Position numbers and translations under genes: made by a program. Positions 26,776 through 37,414 of a stretch of DNA of 64,000 nucleotides are shown in pieces (within the stretch, counting starts at the first letter, position 1; each line of letters opens with the position of its first letter). The DNA is from Allomuricauda sp. (GTDB lineage Bacteria; Bacteroidota; Bacteroidia; Flavobacteriales; Flavobacteriaceae). The notes below the pieces were generated by a model. That model saw only the letters and a program-made list of their open reading frames with translations. It was not told the origin of the DNA and searched no databases. The DNA is taken from the NCBI GenBank assembly GCA_017795045.1, contig CP051244.1:3034533-3098532 (forward strand), read 5' to 3'.

Positions 26776-29700
26776 ATCAAACGCTCTGCATTCATACTAT
26801 TCTTCGTATGTCTTGTTGCCACCACTACGCAGGGACAGACAGGGCTTATAGACAGTCTTCAGCAAAAATATTCCACCGTTGACTCTGACTCTCTTCGGAT
26901 ACGGATACTTAAGGATATTGCTTGGGAATACCTGAACAATCGCGGGAACCCAGATTTGGCAAAAAAGCATATCGATAGCTTGTACACCATCAGCCAAAAT
27001 GCAAACCTGTCTTGGGGAATTGCCATGGCGGATTATCAATATGCCGTGTGGGAAAGACAGATTGGAAACTACAGCAAAGCCCTGAATCATATTGATGGGT
27101 ATTTGAACCATTACCGTACCCAAAAAGAACCTTTTGCACTGGCCAATGGCCTATACCAAAAGGCCATTATTTTGGATAATCTGGGAGATTTTGACAAAAG
27201 CTTGGGAATCTACTACGATATCCTGAAAATATATGAAGACCATGATGATCGGTTCAGTATTGCCACCACACTGAATGCCATGGGTGAAATCCTGAAAAAG
27301 ACCGGAAAAATGTCCGAGGCCATGGACCATTACAATAGAGCCTTGGAGATCTTCAGTGCCTTGAACGATAAAACGGAAATAGCCAATTGCCTTTTCAACA
27401 TTGGGGACACGTTCATGCACCAAGAAGATTATGATCAAGCCTTGGAATACTTGAACCGGGCCTTGGCCTTGGACCAAGAGACCAACAGCGATTGGGGAAA
27501 AGCTTTTGATTATGAGGCCTTGGGAAAGGTATACGGGCGTCAAAAAAGATACGCCCAAGCTCTGGAGCACCACAACAAGGCACTTGCCCTAAGGGAAAAA
27601 TTGGGCATGAGATTGGAGCTCTCCATGAGCTATACCCAAATAGGAACCATCAATCTTGAAATGGGCAAGCCCGAACAGGCAGAAAAATCCATCCTAAATG
27701 CCATTGCCATAGCCGAAGAAATTGGTGCACGCTCCCACCTTCAGGAAAACTATGACATCCTTTCCCGCATTTATGAGAGCAACAAGGAATACAACAAGGC
27801 GCTGATCTATAAAAATAAGTTTGTGGCCTTGAAGGACAGTTTGTTCAATGAGGCCAAATCCAAGCAGATTGAAGAACTCCAGGTAAGGTTCGACACTGAA
27901 AAAAAACAGGATGCCATCGCCACGCTCCAAAAAGATGCGGAAATCAACCAGTTGAAGATCAAGCAACAGAAAACCCTTCGGAACATTATCATAGGACTGG
28001 CCGTGGCCGCATTATTATTCCTCTGGTTCGCCTTTAAACGCTATAAGCAGAATCAGCGTGTAAAACAGGCCGACGAGGAAAAAAGACGTGCCGTCCAAGA
28101 AGAACGAAAGCGTACGGAGATTGAAAGACAGCGAGTGGCGGAACTTCAAAAAATAGATGCGTTGAAAGATGAATTCCTGGCCAACACTTCCCACGAACTG
28201 AGAACGCCCTTGGTGGGCATCATTGGCTTATCGGAATCCTTAAAAGATGGCATAGCGGGCAAACTGCCCCAAGCGGCCTTGGAGAATTTGGACATGATTT
28301 CCAACAGTGGTAAACGACTTTCCCACTTGGTCAACGACATCCTTGATTTTTCAAAACTTAAGAACCAGGACCTGTCGCTTACCCTTCAGCCTGTGGATCT
28401 TTATGCCATATCCAACATTGTACTGCGGTTGTCCCAGCCCCTGCTCAAGGACAAAAAACTAAAACTCATCAATTCCATCCCAAAGGACATCCCTTTGGTG
28501 ACCGCCGATGAAAACCGGGTACAACAGATTATGCACAATCTCATTGGCAATGCCATTAAGTTTACCGAGAAGGGGTACATTACCCTTTTTGCCGAAGCGA
28601 AGGATACCATGATTTCCATCTCCATATCGGATACGGGAATTGGTATTTCAAAAGATAAGCAGGATACCATTTTTAATTCCTTTGAACAAGGGGACGGGTC
28701 CATCCAAAGGACCTATGGCGGTACTGGGCTTGGCCTTTCGGTCACAAAACATTTGGTGGAACTGCACGGGGGCACCATTCAGGTTGAATCGGAACCGGGA
28801 AAAGGGGCCATTTTCTCCTTTACCCTACCCGTTAGCGAAATCAAACGAAGAGAACTCAAACAAAAGGGACAAATGGGTCAAGACGTTGTCCAAACCATAA
28901 GTCGTGGCAACGAAGACCTACTTCCCAAACAAATAAAGACCAACTCCCTAGAAGGATCCACAAAAATACTTGTAGTGGATGATGAACCCGTAAACCGGAG
29001 GGTTTTGGAAAACCATCTTACGGTGGAAGGGTATGAAGTCATTGAAGCAAGTTCAGGTAAGGAGGCCTTAAAATTATTGGATGGGGAGATTCCGTTCCAA
29101 TTGGTGTTATTGGATATTATGATGCCTGGACTTTCCGGATACGAGGTCTGTGAGACCATTCGGAAGCAATATACGGCCAGTGATCTGCCCATCATCCTGC
29201 TCACTGCCAAAAACACGGTCAATGATTTGGTCATCGGATTCAATTCCGGTGCCAACGATTACCTCACCAAACCCTTTTCAAAGGGTGAATTGCTGAGTCG
29301 GATACGGACCCACATCAACCTGAACACCATTCATAGGGCCACTTCCAAGTTTGTTCCCTCCGAATTTGTACAATCCGTGGGAAAAGAATCCATCACCGAT
29401 GTCAAGTTGGGTGATCATATTGAAAAGAACGTGACGGTACTTTTTTCTGATATCCGGGATTACACCTCCCTAGCTGAAGGAATGACACCGGAGCAAAACT
29501 TCAAGTTTGTCAATGCCTATGTGGGTCGAATGGGACCCATCATCAAAGAAAATGAAGGCTTTGTGAACCAATATCTCGGGGATGGCATCATGGCCCTATT
29601 CCCAAAAACTCCAGAAAATGCCTTGGATGCCGCTGTTGAAATGCAGCGCGCCCTTTCCTTGTACAACAAAAGAAGGGTCGAAGAGAAAGGATACAAACCC

Positions 29701-30201
29701 CTATCCATTGGAATAGGCTTGCACACCGGACCATTGATCATGGGAATCATCGGGGATTCCAAACGAAACGATCCCGCCGTGATCGCAGATACCGTCAACA
29801 GTGCGGCCCGGGTCGAAGGAGTCACCAAACATTTCGGGGCCAATATCATTATTAGTGAGGATAGCATACAGACCATGGAGGATGCCACAGGATTCAATTT
29901 CAGATATTTGGGAAAAGTGCGGGTAAAGGGAAAGCAAAAGGCCATTGAAATCTACGAATGTATAGATGGAGACAGCATTGAGAGCATTTCCCTAAAGCTC
30001 GAGACCCTGACCCACTACACCGAAGGCATCGAAGCCTATTTCAAAGGGGAATTCAATGCAGCTTCCACTGCTTTTGAGTGGGTCCTTTACAAAAACCCCG
30101 GCGATTCCGTAGCCCACTATTTTAATGACCAAGCCAAAAAATATGCCGTGTTGGGTGCTCCGGAGGGTTGGGCCTCCGGAACCGTGATACACGAAAAGTA
30201 G
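26776..30201 (+). CDS. TPR hybrid histidine kinase / receiver / class III nucleotide cyclase
   Basis: 1141 aa if started at ATC 26776. This gives a typical signal peptide (residue 2 on: KRSAFILFFVCLVATTTQGQ) in frame with the rest; no ATG, GTG or TTG exists between the in-frame stop at 26743-26745 and TTG 26956, which would cut into the first TPR. Order: signal peptide, six to seven periplasmic TPRs (about 60-340), one membrane helix (about 403-423), coiled coil, HisKA with His473 (NTSHELRTPLVG), HATPase (NLIGNAIKFTEKG, GTGLGLSVTKHL), receiver with Asp780 (LLDIMMPGLSG), and a class III cyclase with metal aspartates 892 (LFSDIRDYTS) and 936 (YLGDGIMALF) and the DTVNSAARVEG block. It should turn a periplasmic signal into phosphotransfer and cyclic nucleotide synthesis. 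It is convergent with nifJ, 13 bp apart. Confidence 0.88.
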   Translation: MKRSAFILFFVCLVATTTQGQTGLIDSLQQKYSTVDSDSLRIRILKDIAWEYLNNRGNPDLAKKHIDSLYTISQNANLSWGIAMADYQYAVWERQIGNYSKALNHIDGYLNHYRTQKEPFALANGLYQKAIILDNLGDFDKSLGIYYDILKIYEDHDDRFSIATTLNAMGEILKKTGKMSEAMDHYNRALEIFSALNDKTEIANCLFNIGDTFMHQEDYDQALEYLNRALALDQETNSDWGKAFDYEALGKVYGRQKRYAQALEHHNKALALREKLGMRLELSMSYTQIGTINLEMGKPEQAEKSILNAIAIAEEIGARSHLQENYDILSRIYESNKEYNKALIYKNKFVALKDSLFNEAKSKQIEELQVRFDTEKKQDAIATLQKDAEINQLKIKQQKTLRNIIIGLAVAALLFLWFAFKRYKQNQRVKQADEEKRRAVQEERKRTEIERQRVAELQKIDALKDEFLANTSHELRTPLVGIIGLSESLKDGIAGKLPQAALENLDMISNSGKRLSHLVNDILDFSKLKNQDLSLTLQPVDLYAISNIVLRLSQPLLKDKKLKLINSIPKDIPLVTADENRVQQIMHNLIGNAIKFTEKGYITLFAEAKDTMISISISDTGIGISKDKQDTIFNSFEQGDGSIQRTYGGTGLGLSVTKHLVELHGGTIQVESEPGKGAIFSFTLPVSEIKRRELKQKGQMGQDVVQTISRGNEDLLPKQIKTNSLEGSTKILVVDDEPVNRRVLENHLTVEGYEVIEASSGKEALKLLDGEIPFQLVLLDIMMPGLSGYEVCETIRKQYTASDLPIILLTAKNTVNDLVIGFNSGANDYLTKPFSKGELLSRIRTHINLNTIHRATSKFVPSEFVQSVGKESITDVKLGDHIEKNVTVLFSDIRDYTSLAEGMTPEQNFKFVNAYVGRMGPIIKENEGFVNQYLGDGIMALFPKTPENALDAAVEMQRALSLYNKRRVEEKGYKPLSIGIGLHTGPLIMGIIGDSKRNDPAVIADTVNSAARVEGVTKHFGANIIISEDSIQTMEDATGFNFRYLGKVRVKGKQKAIEIYECIDGDSIESISLKLETLTHYTEGIEAYFKGEFNAASTAFEWVLYKNPGDSVAHYFNDQAKKYAVLGAPEGWASGTVIHEK

Positions 30202-30214
30202 TGAATGATCCCGT

Positions 30215-33200
30215 CTAATATACCGGACTCAATTCCAGCGACTTGGAAACAGCCAAATGGCTATACCGTTCAAACCGATCATCCACATTTTGCTGGGCTT
30301 TTTGAAAGAATCTTGTAGAAGCATCATCCTCACTATCAAAAAAGGCATCAAACCGTTTTTCCATACGTAAATAGTATTCCACAGGTAGACTGGGTCGTTC
30401 CGAATCCAATTGTAGGGAAGCAAGACCTTTTTCCACCCTCGAGGGATCATTACGATACAACAACCACTGCCCCGATGCGACTGCGGCTTTGTGGTATTGT
30501 GAGGGATGTTTCATATCAATCCCATGTGTAGGGCTATGGCAATACGCAATAATGATGGACGGTCCGTTATGCCGTTCCGCTTCCACAAAAGCCTTCAAGG
30601 TTTGTTCTTGATCTGCCCCTATGGCCACGGATGCTACATAAACCTCTTCATACTGCATGGCCAATGCGCCCAAATCCTTTTTTGATTTCTGTTTTCCCTT
30701 GGCAGCAAATCTTGCCGAAGCCCCATACGGCGTCGCTTTTGACATTTGTCCGCCCGTATTGGAGTACACCTCGTTGTCCAATACCAAGATGTTCACATTC
30801 TTTCCCGATGCCAAAACATGGTCCAATCCTCCATACCCAATATCGTAGGCCCAACCATCTCCCCCAACGATCCATACACTCTTCTTCACCAAACTATCGA
30901 CATTTTGGGACAGTATTCGTGCTTCGGGCATCTGGACTTTCTTCAGTATGGATTTTAATTGGTCAACGCGGTTCCTTTGTTGGTTGATTTCCTGCTCCGT
31001 GGTTTGCTTGGCATTTAAAATATCCCGAACCAATCGGTCCCCTATAAATCCTGAAAGTTTTTGAAGCAACTTCTTTGCTTCCAATTCCTGCTGGTCCAAG
31101 GACAATCTATACCCCAAACCAAACTCCGCATTGTCCTCAAACAAGGAGTTGGACCAGGCAGGTCCCCTGCCCTCCTTGGTTTTGCCCCAAGGAGTGGTAG
31201 GAAGTGCACCTCCGAAAATAGAACTTGCCCCTGTGGCATTGGCCACCAACAAACGGTCACCAAACAATTGCGACATTACTTTTAAGTAAGGGGCCTGCCC
31301 GCACCCATCCTCCCCCATAGGATACTTGAACAGGGGTTCCTGCAATTGTTGTTGACTTACTTTGGAAGCATCAATTTTATTTCGGTCCATCTCTGGAATG
31401 GTATCGAAATAAGCCCAATGTTCCCTTTCCTGCTCCAAACGGGATTTGCCATGGGTCATTACAAGAGCCTTTGCAGGACAAGCATCCACACAGTTATGAC
31501 AACCTGTACACTGATCGGGATTTACTTGAATGGTATAATCCAATAGATTGAATCCTTCCATTTCCTCCAACATCTTCATGGATTTCCACTGTAAGGGTGT
31601 TTCCCTTAAACTCTTGGCATCATAGGCTTTTATACGGAGTGCCCCAGATGGACACGCCATGCTGCAAGCACCACATTGTATACACTGGTCCGGGGTCCAA
31701 TCGGGGAGTTCTTTGGCCAGTTCCCTGTCATTATATATGGATGTTCCCGTTGGATAGGTCCCATCCACTGGGAATAGACTCACCGGGGCTTCGTCTCCCT
31801 TACCAGCCAAAAGCCGACCTAGGAGTGTTTGGGCGAAAACCTCATCTTCACACAACTCTTGTTCGCTATTTTGATTTTTGGATGACGTATCCACCCTTTT
31901 AATTTCATCACGGCCAACGGAAAAGATTTCATTGTTGACAACTGAGTTGTTCATTATCAAATAGCTGGCATGCAGAACGGAAATATTTTCACCACTACGC
32001 TTTATATATTCCAATAGTTTTTCACTGTTGACCGCATAGAGCTTCACCTGCTTCTTTTGGATGGTCTTTTGGGTTTCCTCGGAAAGTGCCTTCCAAACTT
32101 CAGTGGGCTGGTCTTCGGATAGCACCACTACTACCCCTTGAAAGGCTACACGTTCCAAGACAGAGTCTTTTTCAAGAAATTCAAGATTTTCACAGGCTGC
32201 AAAATCCGCATGGGATACTAAAAAAGGTGCTTTTATCGGCGAATTTGAAGCCCGGAAATGAGCCACATTCCGAGAGCTTGATTTTCTGTAGTCACACTCC
32301 TCATAGCCTTGCACAAATTTGCCCTCCGTATTTCCCACATACTGCAAAAGATTCTTAAACTGCTCTAAAGTTTTTGGATTTTTAATCGAATAAAACAAGG
32401 CCTGACCATTAAAGGGAATGGTAACCTCCATTTCAGGTTTGGGAAGGCTTAAATGGGTCACATCGTCCGAAATGCCCACCGTAAAATTATTCTTCGGCAC
32501 TTCTTGCTTTAAATTGGTGATAATGGATTTGACCATTGAGGGTGTAAATTCCTTGGAACCCAGCCCATACCTACCTCCAACAATTTTGGGGAGAAAACCA
32601 TTTTTATGGTTTTGCACAAAGGCTTGGGTAACATCCAAATACAAAGGTTCCCCTACGGAACCAGGTTCTTTGGTCCGATCCAAAACGGCAATGGCCCTAC
32701 ACGTATCCGGTAGGCTTTTGATAAAATGCTCGGCACTGAAAGGTCGATACAATCGCACCTTGACCAGTCCAATCTTTTCTCCTTGGGCATTTAGATGCCC
32801 TATGGTCGTTTCAATGGTTTCGGTACCTGAAGCCATGGCAATGATCACTTGTTCCGCTTGGGGGTGTCCCACATACTCAAAAATGTGGTACTGCCTTCCG
32901 GTAAGCTGGGCAAATTCATCCATTTTTTGCTGCACGATTTCTGGACAGGCATTATAAAAGGTATTCACCGCTTCCCGACTTTGAAAAAACACATCGGGAG
33001 CTTGGGAAGTTCCCCTAATCACGGGAGCATTGGGATTCAACGCCCTGTCTTTGTGGGCTTGTATGGTTTCGATATCCATCATCTGTCTGATAACAGTATC
33101 AGATACCTTTCCTATTTTGGAAACTTCATGGGAAGTTCTAAAGCCATCAAAAAAGTGAACAAATGGAATTCTTGATGCCAAGGATGCCGCTTGGGAAATC

Positions 33201-33664
33201 AGTGCAAAATCCATAGCTTCCTGAACCGAAGCCGACCCCAATAAGGCATATCCGGTATTGCGAACAGCCATGACATCGCTATGGTCGCCAAAAACGGACA
33301 AGGCATGTGTTGCCACAGATCTTGTGGCCACATGGATCACATTTGGGCTAAGTTCGCCCGCAATTTTGTACATGTTGGGCATCATCAAAAGCAATCCTTG
33401 TGATGCCGTAAAGGTGGAGGTCAATGATCCGGTCTGCAAGGCACCGTGCATGGCCCCTGCCACACCGGCTTCGCTTTGCATTTCAAAAACCGAAGGAACA
33501 TTGCCAAAAATATTTTCGTGTTGGTAAGCGCTCCACTCCTCTACCAGTTCAGACATTTCCGAAGATGGGGTAATGGGATAAATGGGAAATACCTCATTGG
33601 TTCGATAGGCCACATGTGCTACGGCCTGATTTCCATTTACGATACTGTATTTCTGGTTTTGCAT
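30215..33664 (-). CDS. nifJ: pyruvate:ferredoxin (flavodoxin) oxidoreductase
   Basis: 1149 aa, the single-chain form. Pyruvate-binding domain I starts [28 protein letters not shown]. Two 4Fe-4S clusters follow in the middle ([16 protein letters not shown] and [16 protein letters not shown]), and a thiamine diphosphate domain lies near the end ([40 protein letters not shown]). It oxidises pyruvate to acetyl-CoA and CO2, reducing ferredoxin or flavodoxin. It follows the OsmC gene 75 bp downstream beyond a terminator; no separate TAnnTTTG promoter was found, so partial read-through from the sigma-54 promoter is possible. Confidence 0.95.
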   Translation of the reverse strand: [1149 protein letters not shown]

Positions 33665-33698
33665 GGGAGCGAGGTAAAAAATTTGTTAGTTGGATAAA

Positions 33699-33730
33699 AA
33701 ATAAGCCGCCCATTTTTAGACGGCTTATTT
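33699..33730 (-). terminator. terminator between the OsmC gene and nifJ
   Basis: On the minus strand AAATAAGCCG (33730-33721) pairs with CGGCTTATTT (33708-33699) across a 12-nt loop, followed by a U run. It may act as an attenuator for nifJ, whose ATG lies 35 bp beyond. Confidence 0.75.
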
Positions 33731-33739
33731 TACGTGATC

Positions 33740-34291
33740 TTACTTTTCAAATTCGATGGTAACCGGAGTTGGGTTGGTTATCATATCGAATACGGGAGAG
33801 AATTGTGACAAGGCTCTCAATTGCTCTTCGGAAGCATCGGACTTCACTTTGAATTTTACAGTGATTCCCTTGTAACCTTTACGTACTTCTGGGTCAAGAC
33901 CCAAGAACCCGTGAAGGTCAGCTTCACCACTCAAGGTACTTTCCATACCTTCAATGTCGATACCGTTGGCAGCAGCATGGTAGGCCATAGCTCCAGTTAG
34001 GCAAGATCCCAAAGCGTGCAAAACAATCTCTGCAGGGTTGGGCGCTTGGTCTTTCCCCAAAAGCACCTCAACGTGGTCGGCCTCCAAGGTAAAGTCTCCT
34101 TTTCTAGTTGGGTGTTCTTGTCCTACACCATAGTAATCCTGAACACTGGTCACACAATGACCGCCTTCGATCCAGTTGTTTTTTGCCCTGAACTCGAACT
34201 TAGCCAATTCTGGGTTTTCCTGTACTGCGTTGATCGTGTCTACGAGTTGATCTACGTTTACTCCGTTCTTAATGTTTGCTGTTGTAATCAT
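33740..34291 (-). CDS. OsmC-family protein under sigma-54 control
   Basis: 183 aa. ALGSCLTGAMAYHAAANGIDIEGMES is the first OsmC cysteine block. At the position of the second, normally Cys-Pro-, the sequence reads LSQFSPVFDMITNPTPV, that is Ser in place of Cys. An additional cysteine lies in GGHCVTSVQDYYG. The canonical two-cysteine peroxidase cycle is therefore doubtful, and it may be a one-cysteine reductase or binding protein. The promoter is a near-perfect sigma-54 site with three upstream palindromes, and the neighbouring gene encodes a sigma-54 activator. Downstream is nifJ, beyond a terminator. Confidence 0.88.
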   Translation of the reverse strand: MITTANIKNGVNVDQLVDTINAVQENPELAKFEFRAKNNWIEGGHCVTSVQDYYGVGQEHPTRKGDFTLEADHVEVLLGKDQAPNPAEIVLHALGSCLTGAMAYHAAANGIDIEGMESTLSGEADLHGFLGLDPEVRKGYKGITVKFKVKSDASEEQLRALSQFSPVFDMITNPTPVTIEFEK

Positions 34292-34337
34292 GTTTTTAGA
34301 TTTTTAAGATTAATTGATTAACATTTGCTTTAGAATA

Positions 34338-34353
34338 TGCATCCGCCGTGCCA
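34338..34353 (-). promoter_or_regulatory. sigma-54 (RpoN) promoter of the OsmC gene
   Basis: The minus strand reads TGGCACGGCGGATGCA, matching the sigma-54 consensus TGGCAC-N5-TTGCA at all but one base, with the invariant GG-N10-GC. Transcription should start near 34327, giving a 36-nt leader before the ATG at 34291. Confidence 0.85.
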
Positions 34354-34412
34354 AATAATGCAATTAATTGGTAATCAATTATTTATATCTTAAAATACAA
34401 TGAAGAGTGTTT

Positions 34413-34464
34413 ACGAAATTTCGTTAATTTACGAGATGTCGTTAGTTTATTTACGGGATTTCGT
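34413..34464 (-). promoter_or_regulatory. three palindromic enhancer sites (UAS) for the sigma-54 activator
   Basis: ACGAAATTTCGT (34413-34424, perfect palindrome), ACGAGATGTCGT (34431-34442) and ACGGGATTTCGT (34453-34464) share the pattern ACGnnATnTCGT, each preceded by TT. Their centres lie about 91, 109 and 131 bp upstream of the predicted start, the usual range for bacterial enhancers. They abut the 3' end of the activator gene (stop at 34469). Fis-type helix-turn-helix dimers bind such palindromes. Confidence 0.75.
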
Positions 34465-34468
34465 CAAC

Positions 34469-36307
34469 TTAGACCGGTCTGGAGATTCCCAGTGCCTTTA
34501 TCTTGGAGGTAAGTGTGGTGGGACGCAGCCCCAGAAGCGCTGCGGCGCCATTTTTCCCTGAAATCTTCCATTGGGATTTCTTGAGGGCGTTAAGAATATT
34601 CTGCTTTTCCAGCTGTATCAATTCTTGGGAAGTATAAATGTGTTCACTCTTGGTCTTTGGCGTCATCTCCTCCGAAGGATTGGAATTTGGTATGATTTCT
34701 GACCAATCTATCCCACCGTTTTGGGAAACAATAACAGCCCTTTCGATAAGGTTTTGAAGTTCACGAACATTTCCAGGCCATCCATATTTCAAAAACAATT
34801 GCTGCTGTGCTGCGGTCAGCGGTTTGATTTTTCTACCCATTTTCTTGGAAAAGTATTCGATCATATCATCGGCAATCAAACAAACATCCCTTCCCCTATC
34901 CCGCAAAGCGGGAATTTCAATCGGAAACACGTTCAAACGATAAAACAGGTCTTCCCTAAACTTACCTTCCTTGGACAGTGTTAGCAAATCCCGATGGGTA
35001 GCGGCGATGATACGTACATTCACCTTTATGGTCGTTGAGCTTCCCACAGGATCAAACTCCCCCTCTTGGATCACCCGCAACAACTTGGGTTGGAGATCCA
35101 ACGGAAGTTCCCCGATCTCATCCAAGAAAATAGTGCCTTTGTCCGCCAATAAAAACCGCCCCTTTCTACTGTTGGTCGCTCCCGTAAAAGCACCCTTTTC
35201 ATGTCCAAAAAGTTCGCTCTCTATCAAATTGGCAGGAATGGCCCCGCAATTAATGCGAATCAAAGGACCATCGCTCCTAGCGCTAGCTTTATGAATGGCC
35301 CGGGCCACCAATTCCTTCCCCGTACCGGTTTCGCCATGCACCAAAACCGTAGCTTGGGTTTGGGCCACTTGTTGAATGAGCTCCAGCACCTTTATCATGG
35401 AACCGTGTTCCGCAATGATACCGTGGTCATGGGTCAGCTCCTTGATTTCTTCCTGCAAATATTCAGTCTGGCTTTCCAGGGAGGTAATCTTATTTTCGGC
35501 CAATAAGCGATCTTCCATATTCCGAAGAATCAACGTATAAAATGTATCGGTATCGTTACCGTAATGGCTCAACGTTCCCTCATTGAGGGTTTCCTTTCCA
35601 TCGGACCCAATGACCTTTACCATCTTGGGCAAATAGGTGTTTGAACCTTCGGCCCCGTTCTGGCAGATGGATTCCAACAGCTGGGCCGATTCATCATCCA
35701 AAAAGAAAAGCACATTCCGCTGGTCCACATCCTCATTTTCCAATAGTTTTTTTGCGGAGTCGTTGGCCAAGAATATCCTAAAGTTGGCGTCGAACATCAG
35801 AATGGCGTCCATGGCGCCGTCAATCAAACCCATCATCTTGGAGTTGGTCAGTTCCAATTCTTGCTTTGATGAGGCCAGACGCTCTTGGACCCTATCGAGC
35901 TCCCTGTGTCTTTTAATGAGAACGGACATGATCCCTTTTACGAATCCGGTGTTCGAATCCATCAATTCCTGAAAATGGGTGGTCTCTATTTTCAATAGAA
36001 GGGTTTCTTCTTCCGCAGTGACCGACACCGATCGTGGTTTGCTGTCAATCAAGGCATATTCGCCAAAACATTCGCCCTTATGGAGCTTTCCGTATACATG
36101 GTCTTTATCATGCACCCTGACATGGCCTTCCAAAATAACATACATGGCCTCCCCCAACTCTCCCTTTCTTATTATGGTCCTATTGATAGGATACTGCTCC
36201 TCCACCGCATTTTTACACAACTGCAGCAGCGAGGCCTTATCCACTTCGGAGAAGAATGGGACTTCCTTTAAAAAATTCACCAAATCCATGAGTCGGGCCG
36301 AGGTCAT
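34469..36307 (-). CDS. sigma-54-dependent activator with cyclic-nucleotide-binding and PAS-like domains
   Basis: 612 aa from the ATG at 36305-36307; the longer frame to 36358 would start inside the promoter. Residues 15-130 are a CRP-type cyclic-nucleotide-binding domain that keeps the ribose-binding Glu83 (FGEYAL) and phosphate-binding Arg92 (KPRSVSV). A PAS-like domain (about 170-270), coiled coil, and AAA+ domain follow (Walker [15 protein letters not shown] at 372-377 for sigma-54 contact, Walker [23 protein letters not shown]). The C-terminal Fis-type helix-turn-helix is [21 protein letters not shown]. It probably activates the downstream OsmC gene, and perhaps others, in response to a cyclic nucleotide and a PAS signal. 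Confidence 0.93.
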
Positions 36308-36336: not shown

Positions 36337-36365
36337 TAAATATAGGGATTTGCCGCATAATACAA
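36337..36365 (-). promoter_or_regulatory. promoter of the sigma-54 activator gene
   Basis: On the minus strand TTG (36365-36363), 18 bp, TATATTTA (36344-36337). Start near 36330, leader of about 23 nt to the ATG at 36307. Confidence 0.5.
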
Positions 36366-36472
36366 GCTTGGCCAAAATCTATTATTCCATTTTCACGGAA
36401 GGAAACATATCTGGCTTTACCATAAATTAAACTGATGGTTTTTTATACTTTTATGCTTCAAATTTATAATTG

Positions 36473-37414
36473 ATGACCATTACCCAACTTCAGTATGTAC
36501 TTGCTGTTGCAGAACACAAGAATTTTACCTTGGCCGCCGAAAAAAGTTTTGTTACCCAACCCACTTTGAGCATGCAGGTGCAAAAATTGGAGGATGAACT
36601 TGGTGTTTTAATATTTGATCGGAGTAAAAAACCCATTTCCATCACTGCTGTTGGAGAGAAAATCGTAAACCAGGCCAAAAATATTGTCGCCGAAGCTGAG
36701 CGTATCAAAGACATTGTGGACCAAGACAAGGGGTTCATTGGTGGGGATTACACTTTGGGGATCATTCCTACGGTAATGCCCACTTTGCTGCCCATGTTCC
36801 TCAATACATTCATTAAAAAGTATCCCAAGGTCAATCTTATTATAAAGGAGCAGCCCACGGATGCCATGATACGAAATATCTTGGATGGGCATTTGGATGC
36901 GGGTATCGCTGCCACTCCATTGGAGATTGAATTCATCAAGGAACGGCCCCTTTATTATGAGCCTTTTGTGGGCTATGTTCCACAAAGCCACCGATTGTCC
37001 CAGGAACCCATGCTCACCACTGAAGATTTGGATGTGAACGATGTGCTGCTCTTGCAGGACGGACATTGTTTTAGGGACGGGGTGATCAACCTGTGCAAGG
37101 CCTCCAAAAATATACAGGGAGAAATGTTCAAAATTGAAAGTGGCAGTTTTGAAACTTTGGTGAGTTTGGCAGATGAAGGTATGGGCATGACCTTGCTCCC
37201 TTATCTAAATTCCTTGCATCTAGACCCTAAAAAGCAGCCTAACATACGACCCTTTAAAAATCCATCCCCAGCCCGCGAAATCAGTCTGATCTATCATAAA
37301 AGTGAATTGAAGATACAGATAACCGATGCCCTCAAAGACGTCATTTCCGGTATTGTCCGTGGGGCCATTGCCTTTCAGGATGTAAAAATTGTGAGCCCTT
37401 TGGCCCAAAAATAA
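36473..37414 (+). CDS. oxyR: OxyR, LysR-type peroxide sensor
   Basis: 313 aa from ATG 36473. N-terminal LysR helix-turn-helix (TITQLQYVLAVAEHKNFTLAAEKSFVTQPTLSMQVQKLEDELG) and a substrate-binding-type effector domain. The effector domain contains LLLQDGHCFRDGVINLC, with cysteines at 199 and 208, the same numbers and spacing as the redox pair of E. coli OxyR. Peroxide should form a disulfide between them and switch the protein to an activator. It is divergent from the sigma-54 activator gene with 165 bp between; a TACTTTTA box at 36446-36453 may be its -7 element. Confidence 0.92.
   Translation: MTITQLQYVLAVAEHKNFTLAAEKSFVTQPTLSMQVQKLEDELGVLIFDRSKKPISITAVGEKIVNQAKNIVAEAERIKDIVDQDKGFIGGDYTLGIIPTVMPTLLPMFLNTFIKKYPKVNLIIKEQPTDAMIRNILDGHLDAGIAATPLEIEFIKERPLYYEPFVGYVPQSHRLSQEPMLTTEDLDVNDVLLLQDGHCFRDGVINLCKASKNIQGEMFKIESGSFETLVSLADEGMGMTLLPYLNSLHLDPKKQPNIRPFKNPSPAREISLIYHKSELKIQITDALKDVISGIVRGAIAFQDVKIVSPLAQK

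Follow-up and report, generated by a model that had tools for sequence, protein, structure and literature searches.

Does the enhancer-binding protein gene that lies directly upstream of osmC in this flavobacterial locus control osmC through sigma-54 polymerase, and what kind of signal would such a circuit carry? The window, by which we mean the whole stretch of 64,000 nucleotides analysed here, comes from an Allomuricauda genome that consists of one contig of 3.76 Mb. Between 33740 and 36307 on its minus strand, an enhancer-binding protein gene, three palindromes (UAS), a -24/-12 promoter and osmC follow one another in the order of transcription. Our main reading, to which we assign a probability of about 0.8, is that they make up a local sigma-54 circuit in which the activator, acting from the three UAS, would drive osmC, probably with a cyclic nucleotide as the gate and with thiol/sulfur redox functions as the output.

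The activator gene (34469..36307, minus strand) encodes 612 amino acids from the ATG at 36307, and a longer ORF starting at 36358 would encode 629. Pfam searches assigned cNMP_binding, PAS_9, Sigma54_activat, AAA lid and HTH_8 domains to the protein. The Sigma54_activat match reached 243.7 bits, and this AAA+ sigma-54 interaction domain (34916..35419) contains Walker A and GAFTGA motifs that show no variation among the aligned activator relatives (41 of 43 proteins; L078 and L018 were left out). The Fis-type helix-turn-helix at the C terminus (34493..34615) was recognised by HTH_8 with 24.1 bits against a cut-off of 22; the preliminary description of an adjoining gene with GAFTGA, Walker motifs and a Fis-type helix-turn-helix was thus borne out. 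The PAS-like domain (35516..35809; PAS_9, E 2.3e-5) scored 25.0 bits, which is under Pfam's own cut-off of 27. The cNMP-binding domain (35951..36199) carries a conserved phosphate-binding cassette, CFGEYALID...RS, in which F81, G82, E83, Y84, D88, R92 and S93 are identical throughout the 41 aligned sequences, so that the Glu and Arg of the cassette (E83 and R92) are both present and invariant in the family; Cys80, next to the cassette, is conserved in at least 90% of the same alignment. This cassette aligns with cGMP- and cAMP-kinase domains, and the nearest solved structures of the domain by sequence are those of parasite cGMP-dependent kinases, followed by cAMP kinases, while the nearest solved relatives of the AAA+ part are NifA, FleQ, NtrC1 and ZraR. 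An AlphaFold model of the activator matched sigma-54 AAA+ structures (mean pLDDT 79.5), with a pTM of 0.41 that makes its placement of the domains unreliable. Among the NCBIfam matches listed, no equivalog scored above its cut-off (NifA 357.6 against 528.85, NorR 342.1 against 476, FHL activator 332 against 830), and no CRP-type winged helix-turn-helix was listed by Pfam, though cNMP_binding is present. The N-terminal half is 95-96% identical to that of two named Flagellimonas species. Judged by its domains and motifs, the activator is an NtrC-type enhancer-binding protein, and its cNMP domain is predicted probably to bind a cyclic nucleotide.

The palindromes, given in plus-strand letters, are each 12 bp long: the distal UAS1, ACGGGATTTCGT (34453..34464); UAS2, ACGAGATGTCGT (34431..34442), 22 bp from UAS1; and the proximal UAS3, ACGAAATTTCGT (34413..34424), 18 bp from UAS2. 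A spacer of 71 bp leads from UAS3 to the promoter TGGCACGGCGGATGCA on the minus strand (34353-34338), an exact GG-N10-GC in a TGGCA...TGCA context, which had been reported at the correct coordinates. Within the spacer lies an IHF-like site (34361..34373, minus strand), whose position is conserved and which in the window differs by one mismatch from the IHF consensus WATCAANNNNTTR used for scoring. The transcription start is predicted from the -12 element at 34326..34327 (minus strand), where a conserved CA is found. The centres of the UAS then lie about 91, 110 and 131 bp upstream of the start, in agreement with the 91-131 bp proposed earlier. The promoter had been placed 36 nt before the ATG of osmC; its position was right, and the distance of about 36 nt is in fact that from the predicted start to the ATG, the promoter ending 46 nt before it. 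RpoN is encoded in the genome of the window, and also in 394 of the 397 genomes sampled from the same family, so its presence is non-discriminating and was left out as evidence.

Could such an arrangement arise by chance? Taken singly, the elements do not stand out. The single palindrome is not enriched genome-wide (12 hits at 9 places, three of the hits in this locus, against 26 for the reversed pattern), and the promoter pattern with one mismatch occurs in the window at chance level (6 against 5.99 expected). The strict pattern TTGGCAYN6TGCW has 13 matches in the genome against one for the reversed control; 12 of these fall inside longer ORFs and were set aside as evidence, and the one outside is that of osmC. 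The UAS pair with 18-bp spacing, by comparison, occurs with zero mismatch at one place in the 3.76 Mb, and the next-best places have 2-3 mismatches and are fewer than in the control (10 vs 44). When three UAS with these spacings were required, the 40 osmC promoters deviated at 0-5 of the 24 half-site bases, and none of 800 dinucleotide shuffles at fewer than 7. The arrangement of UAS and promoter, unlike the single elements, exceeds chance.

We then turned to the distribution of the locus in 397 genomes of the same family, covering 237 genera. With residues 1-283 (cNMP and PAS) as the query, the activator was found in 40 genomes from 32 genera, in one copy each; in a phylum-wide sample of 316 genomes the same N terminus appeared in two, both already among the known carriers. 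An osmC ortholog (at least 68% identity, E 2e-81 or better) is present in the same 40 genomes and in one further genome, G173, and the next matches drop to 46% identity or less. A PFOR gene of a divergent class, which follows osmC in the window, is present in 38 of the 40 (not in G219 and G378) and in G173, with classes assigned by eye from the hit pattern and the ambiguous G106 and G312 not counted in the second class. These co-occurrences are extreme by Fisher tests, the values being inflated by shared descent; synteny is inherited, and the 40 genomes are therefore not 40 independent cases. The module is patchy within its genus: G384, from the same genus as the window, has neither the activator nor the osmC ortholog nor the divergent PFOR.

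All of the osmC promoters in the 40 activator genomes carry three UAS and, 70-72 bp from the start of UAS3, TGGCA, in a count that required TGGCA to be present, dropped L019 (same contig as L096), left out L016-L018 and replaced L083 and L069 by the osmC-bearing loci L121 and L122. The UAS spacings are 22/18 in 35 promoters and 21/18 in five; the distance from the start of UAS3 to TGGCA is 71 bp in 35, 70 in four and 72 in one (L096); and 32 of 40 promoters have all three distances (22/18/71) exactly. At -12, 33 promoters read GC and seven GT. When 42 loci were aligned without gaps on TGGCA as the anchor, the three UAS stood out together with the CA at the expected start and a conserved stretch immediately upstream of -24. 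The IHF consensus fits at one fixed offset, exactly in 15 of 42 loci and with at most one mismatch in 28, and none of the next five offsets by mean gave an exact match. A 132-bp matrix gave 115.9 at the window site, itself a member of the training set, and at best -38.2 elsewhere in the window; when each of the 38 training rows was scored with itself left out, the values ran from 6.3 to 123.3, and over 483 kb of loci, some of them overlapping, nothing else exceeded -20 save copies shifted by one base. The lack of conservation in relatives that would have counted against the proposal was thus not seen: the activator, three UAS, -24/-12 promoter and osmC occur together in 40 of 40 activator genomes. 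In G173, the one genome with osmC and PFOR in which no activator was detected, the region upstream of osmC has no UAS (12 mismatches) and no TGGCA.

The position of the activator relative to the cassette varies among the relatives. In six loci (L059, L060, L062, L063, L071 and L084), 0.2-1.8 kb of extra DNA, containing genes in four of them, separates the activator from osmC, and the cassette is at osmC in all six. A distance of 88 kb separates the activator from osmC-PFOR in G222, where osmC retains the cassette and no more than two decayed UAS are left next to the activator. In G011, osmC has its own cassette on another contig, and behind the activator stand a UAS triplet and promoter of its own, with a short ORF and mobile-element sequence after them. 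This second triplet and promoter (L069 4847-5100) lead into the short ORF, which is cut by the mobile-element sequence and is maybe a lost second target. Such loci bear on the idea that the palindromes are RNA elements of the 3' end of the activator rather than DNA sites. In the window, the first palindrome does start four bases beyond the activator stop, which ends at 34469; but the palindromes stay at osmC where the activator is 0.2-1.8 kb or 88 kb away, and they recur at unrelated genes, as described below. We rejected this explanation, which now appears exceedingly improbable.

A second explanation would assign the palindromes to some other regulator, such as the nearby OxyR homologue, with a fortuitous -24/-12 sequence and osmC transcribed from a vegetative promoter. 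An OxyR homologue adjoins the activator in nine of 40 loci (the window and L060, L079 and L081-L084 among them), and a scan with a vegetative pattern from another phylum gave a single weak sigma-70-like match within the spacer, located on the opposite strand. However, 31 of 40 loci keep the cassette with no OxyR neighbour within the 10 kb examined; the cassette, including -24/-12 at fixed spacing, co-occurs with the activator; and the same pattern found no sigma-70-like site on the minus strand between the UAS and osmC. This explanation is accordingly very improbable, and we rejected OxyR as binder of the UAS. The OxyR homologue of the window, at 36470-37414, lies beside the activator, and in six loci a ferritin-like (Dps-type) gene stands between the two. 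The proposal that the activator controls the OsmC gene is supported by the joint conservation in all 40 activator genomes among the 397 sampled, and we regard control of osmC by this activator, through sigma-54 and the UAS, as highly probable on these comparative grounds. That proposal had included neither the cNMP domain and the linked cyclase described below nor the IHF-like site, the PFOR gene or the further targets.

The palindrome and its spacing had also been proposed as the seed of a genome-wide search. With at most two mismatches allowed, 38 of 42 genomes contained the UAS2-UAS3 pair, all but G384, G173, G191 and G222, and nearly always at osmC only. There were six extra places over the 42 genomes against nine control hits of the reversed pattern, which is no excess, and five of them were accepted only because in each a third UAS is present and TGGC follows at 69-71 bp. 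We dropped the sixth, in G129 (C31, L141), which falls inside a long ORF and has no promoter. The five extra cassettes are spread over four relatives (G219, G169, G240 and G148). They precede a TauE/SafE gene in G219 and G169, a redoxin gene in G219 and G240 (in G240 also with a DsbD_N-like gene), and a methyltransferase-redoxin-DsbD_N-like run in G148. GG-N10-GC is present in three of the five, the two in G219 being without a proper -12 GC; the matrix scores are 93.6, 59.6, 58.0, -4.8 and -13.9, the last two resulting from the 69-bp spacing. No further place of this kind turned up in the window's own genome, and a genome-wide UAS regulon there was rejected, the eight other UAS-pair places scoring far below zero with the cassette matrix. 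The seed thus led to cassettes before other genes in four relatives, and to none further in the genome of the window.

What might gate the activator? In the window, a TPR - histidine kinase - receiver - class III nucleotide cyclase hybrid (26956..30201, plus strand) lies tail to tail with the PFOR gene and is a candidate source of cyclic nucleotide. We searched the 40 activator genomes and two others for PF00211; in 36 of the 40, a match shared the contig of the activator at a distance of at most 15 kb, against 0.88 expected. Five genomes have a single PF00211 match, and in each of them it is within this distance. In G011 and G222 the cyclase adjoins osmC-PFOR rather than the activator, and in G145 and G148 there is no PF00211 match on the activator contig. 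The linked cyclases have two forms: a 677-aa cyclase-TPR protein beside the activator (L124 9468-11501), and the TPR-kinase-receiver-cyclase hybrid of the kind encoded tail to tail with PFOR in the window. It may be observed that two unrelated class III cyclase forms thereby occupy positions beside one type of module. The metal-binding Asp motifs are present in the linked cyclases, except in one fragmentary match (L096). In canonical class III adenylate cyclases, the Lys before the GDG loop specifies adenine; both forms have Gln at this position (in the window hybrid and the 25 neighbour matches listed), which leaves cAMP versus cGMP, and even cyclase activity, uncertain. As a separate observation, the redoxin/DsbD_N-like unit with a cassette in G240 adjoins another, strongly scoring class III cyclase gene (L142 1-1967, 2095-3091).

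Under a different account of the same sigma-54 circuit, the cNMP and PAS domains would sense redox directly, for example through Cys80, or some other ligand, and the cyclase linkage would be unrelated. The near invariance of Cys80, the non-canonical active sites of the cyclases, and the OsmC, redoxin, DsrE and TauE targets, which suggest redox or sulfur chemistry, are in line with this account; the invariance of the phosphate-binding cassette and the linkage of the cyclase in 36 of 40 genomes, single-cyclase genomes included, argue against it. We consider direct sensing rather unlikely, and gating of the activator by a cyclic nucleotide from the linked cyclase probable, as far as linkage and residue conservation can indicate.

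The gene predicted to be under this control, osmC (33740..34291, minus strand, ATG at 34291), encodes 183 amino acids of the OsmC family (PF02566, 53.7 bits). The protein is a possible OsmC/Ohr peroxidase: among 41 sequences the Cys of SCLT is nearly to fully conserved and GGHC is conserved, which gives candidates for a peroxidatic Cys; the usual second Cys seems to be absent. Downstream lies a terminator-like hairpin (33697..33731, minus strand), also present in relatives, and then the PFOR gene (30215..33664, minus strand), which encodes a divergent class of pyruvate:ferredoxin (flavodoxin) oxidoreductase. A strong hairpin between osmC and PFOR appeared in 39 of 39 folded spacers out of 40, as read by eye without a shuffle control, one 881-nt spacer being left unfolded and two of the 40 loci belonging to the same Robertkochia contig. 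The hairpin is conserved in position, not in sequence, and PFOR starts a few tens of bases beyond it. A consensus terminator scan did not list it, and the stem takes up most of its T run. The hairpin argues against full co-transcription of osmC and PFOR; it is possibly a partial terminator or attenuator, and PFOR may be expressed by read-through or independently. Single-chain PFORs of the family fall into two classes: the first gives one strong match of about 1700-1756 bits, and the second, which is divergent, reaches about 925-1432 bits and is matched in two pieces by the TIGR02176 model; the divergent class is the one that travels with the activator.

Downstream of osmC in G219 and G378 come a SoxA/TsdA-like cytochrome and a DsrE protein; six further loci have a homologue of the cytochrome behind PFOR (at the edges of L064, L076, L078, L086, L089 and L091). 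In L124 (3200-5342; the copy used for the Pfam run) and L125 (8019-10193), the cytochrome c is accompanied by a DsrE protein. The TauE, redoxin and cytochrome/DsrE neighbours suggest a theme of thiol or reactive-sulfur stress; sulfur or thiol stress as the actual stimulus is a tentative proposal, to which we give somewhat less than an even chance.

We infer the following course of events. Dimers of the activator would bind the three palindromic UAS just past its own gene, and the AAA+ ring would assemble there and contact the sigma-54 polymerase waiting at the GG-N10-GC promoter, with the IHF-like site in the 71-bp spacer serving as a bend site. ATP hydrolysis would then open the promoter and lead to osmC transcription, and read-through past the hairpin into the PFOR gene might be a minor product. 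The ring would probably be gated by a cyclic nucleotide, supplied by the linked class III cyclase and bound to the N-terminal cNMP domain, with PAS as a possible second input; the output would be thiol/sulfur redox protection. A broader formulation, for which we see the odds as about even, is a second-messenger-to-sigma-54 module in which a cyclase (possibly making cGMP) signals to a cNMP-binding activator and, through it, to a rigid three-UAS/IHF/-24-12 cassette that is portable to TauE/SafE, redoxin/DsbD and methyltransferase genes, in a thiol/reactive-sulfur response.

How does this compare with known systems? The NorR-norVW system has three UAS, an NO sensor and a dedicated activator beside its target. 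The present locus likewise has a dedicated activator adjoining a target with three UAS, but the activator reaches only 342 bits with the NorR model against a cut-off of 476, no GAF sensor was found in it, and the UAS sequence is different. CRP/FNR regulators that work with class III cyclases share a cNMP domain with phosphate-binding cassette and a cyclase partner, whereas the output here would be a sigma-54 AAA+ machine with a Fis helix-turn-helix, Pfam having listed no helix-turn-helix of the CRP type. NtrC/NifA-type systems resemble the locus in the AAA+ domain with GAFTGA, the Fis helix-turn-helix, UAS about 90-130 bp upstream and an IHF-like site between UAS and promoter, a role of IHF that is described in PMC7057263; they differ in that here the sensor is cNMP-binding and PAS-like, the register of three UAS and promoter is nearly fixed across genera, and the host belongs to the Bacteroidota. 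FisR of Acinetobacter and Cupriavidus, according to PMC7315123, is a local sigma-54 activator of sulfur detoxification genes that mediates a sulfide/persulfide response, with one N-terminal regulatory domain and with SQR, PDO and TauE as targets. The type of activator appears to be the same; on that description, the cNMP and PAS-like sensor and the core targets osmC and PFOR are different, TauE is a target in only two relatives, and a link to sulfur is hinted at by the target genes alone. For Desulfovibrio, pyruvate metabolism and TSUP-type transporters are predicted to be under sigma-54 control (PMC4641369), with pyruvate formate-lyase there where PFOR is found here; a search of that text gave no cyclic-nucleotide terms, and neither did a search of a second paper. 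Sigma-54 regulation in Bacteroidota is, according to PMC12316311, known mostly from predictions. Literature searches confined to open-access papers listed no system that joins a class III cyclase with a sigma-54 activator. The sequence of the present locus shows activator, enhancer, bend site and promoter down to single letters, in a geometry that is nearly invariant across 32 genera; should the activator be gated by a cyclic nucleotide, this would link class III cyclases to sigma-54 activators, two kinds of signalling that are usually seen apart. Compared with these systems, the sigma-54 enhancer circuit as such is known, and what is new is the pairing of sensor and cyclase together with the rigid, portable cassette.
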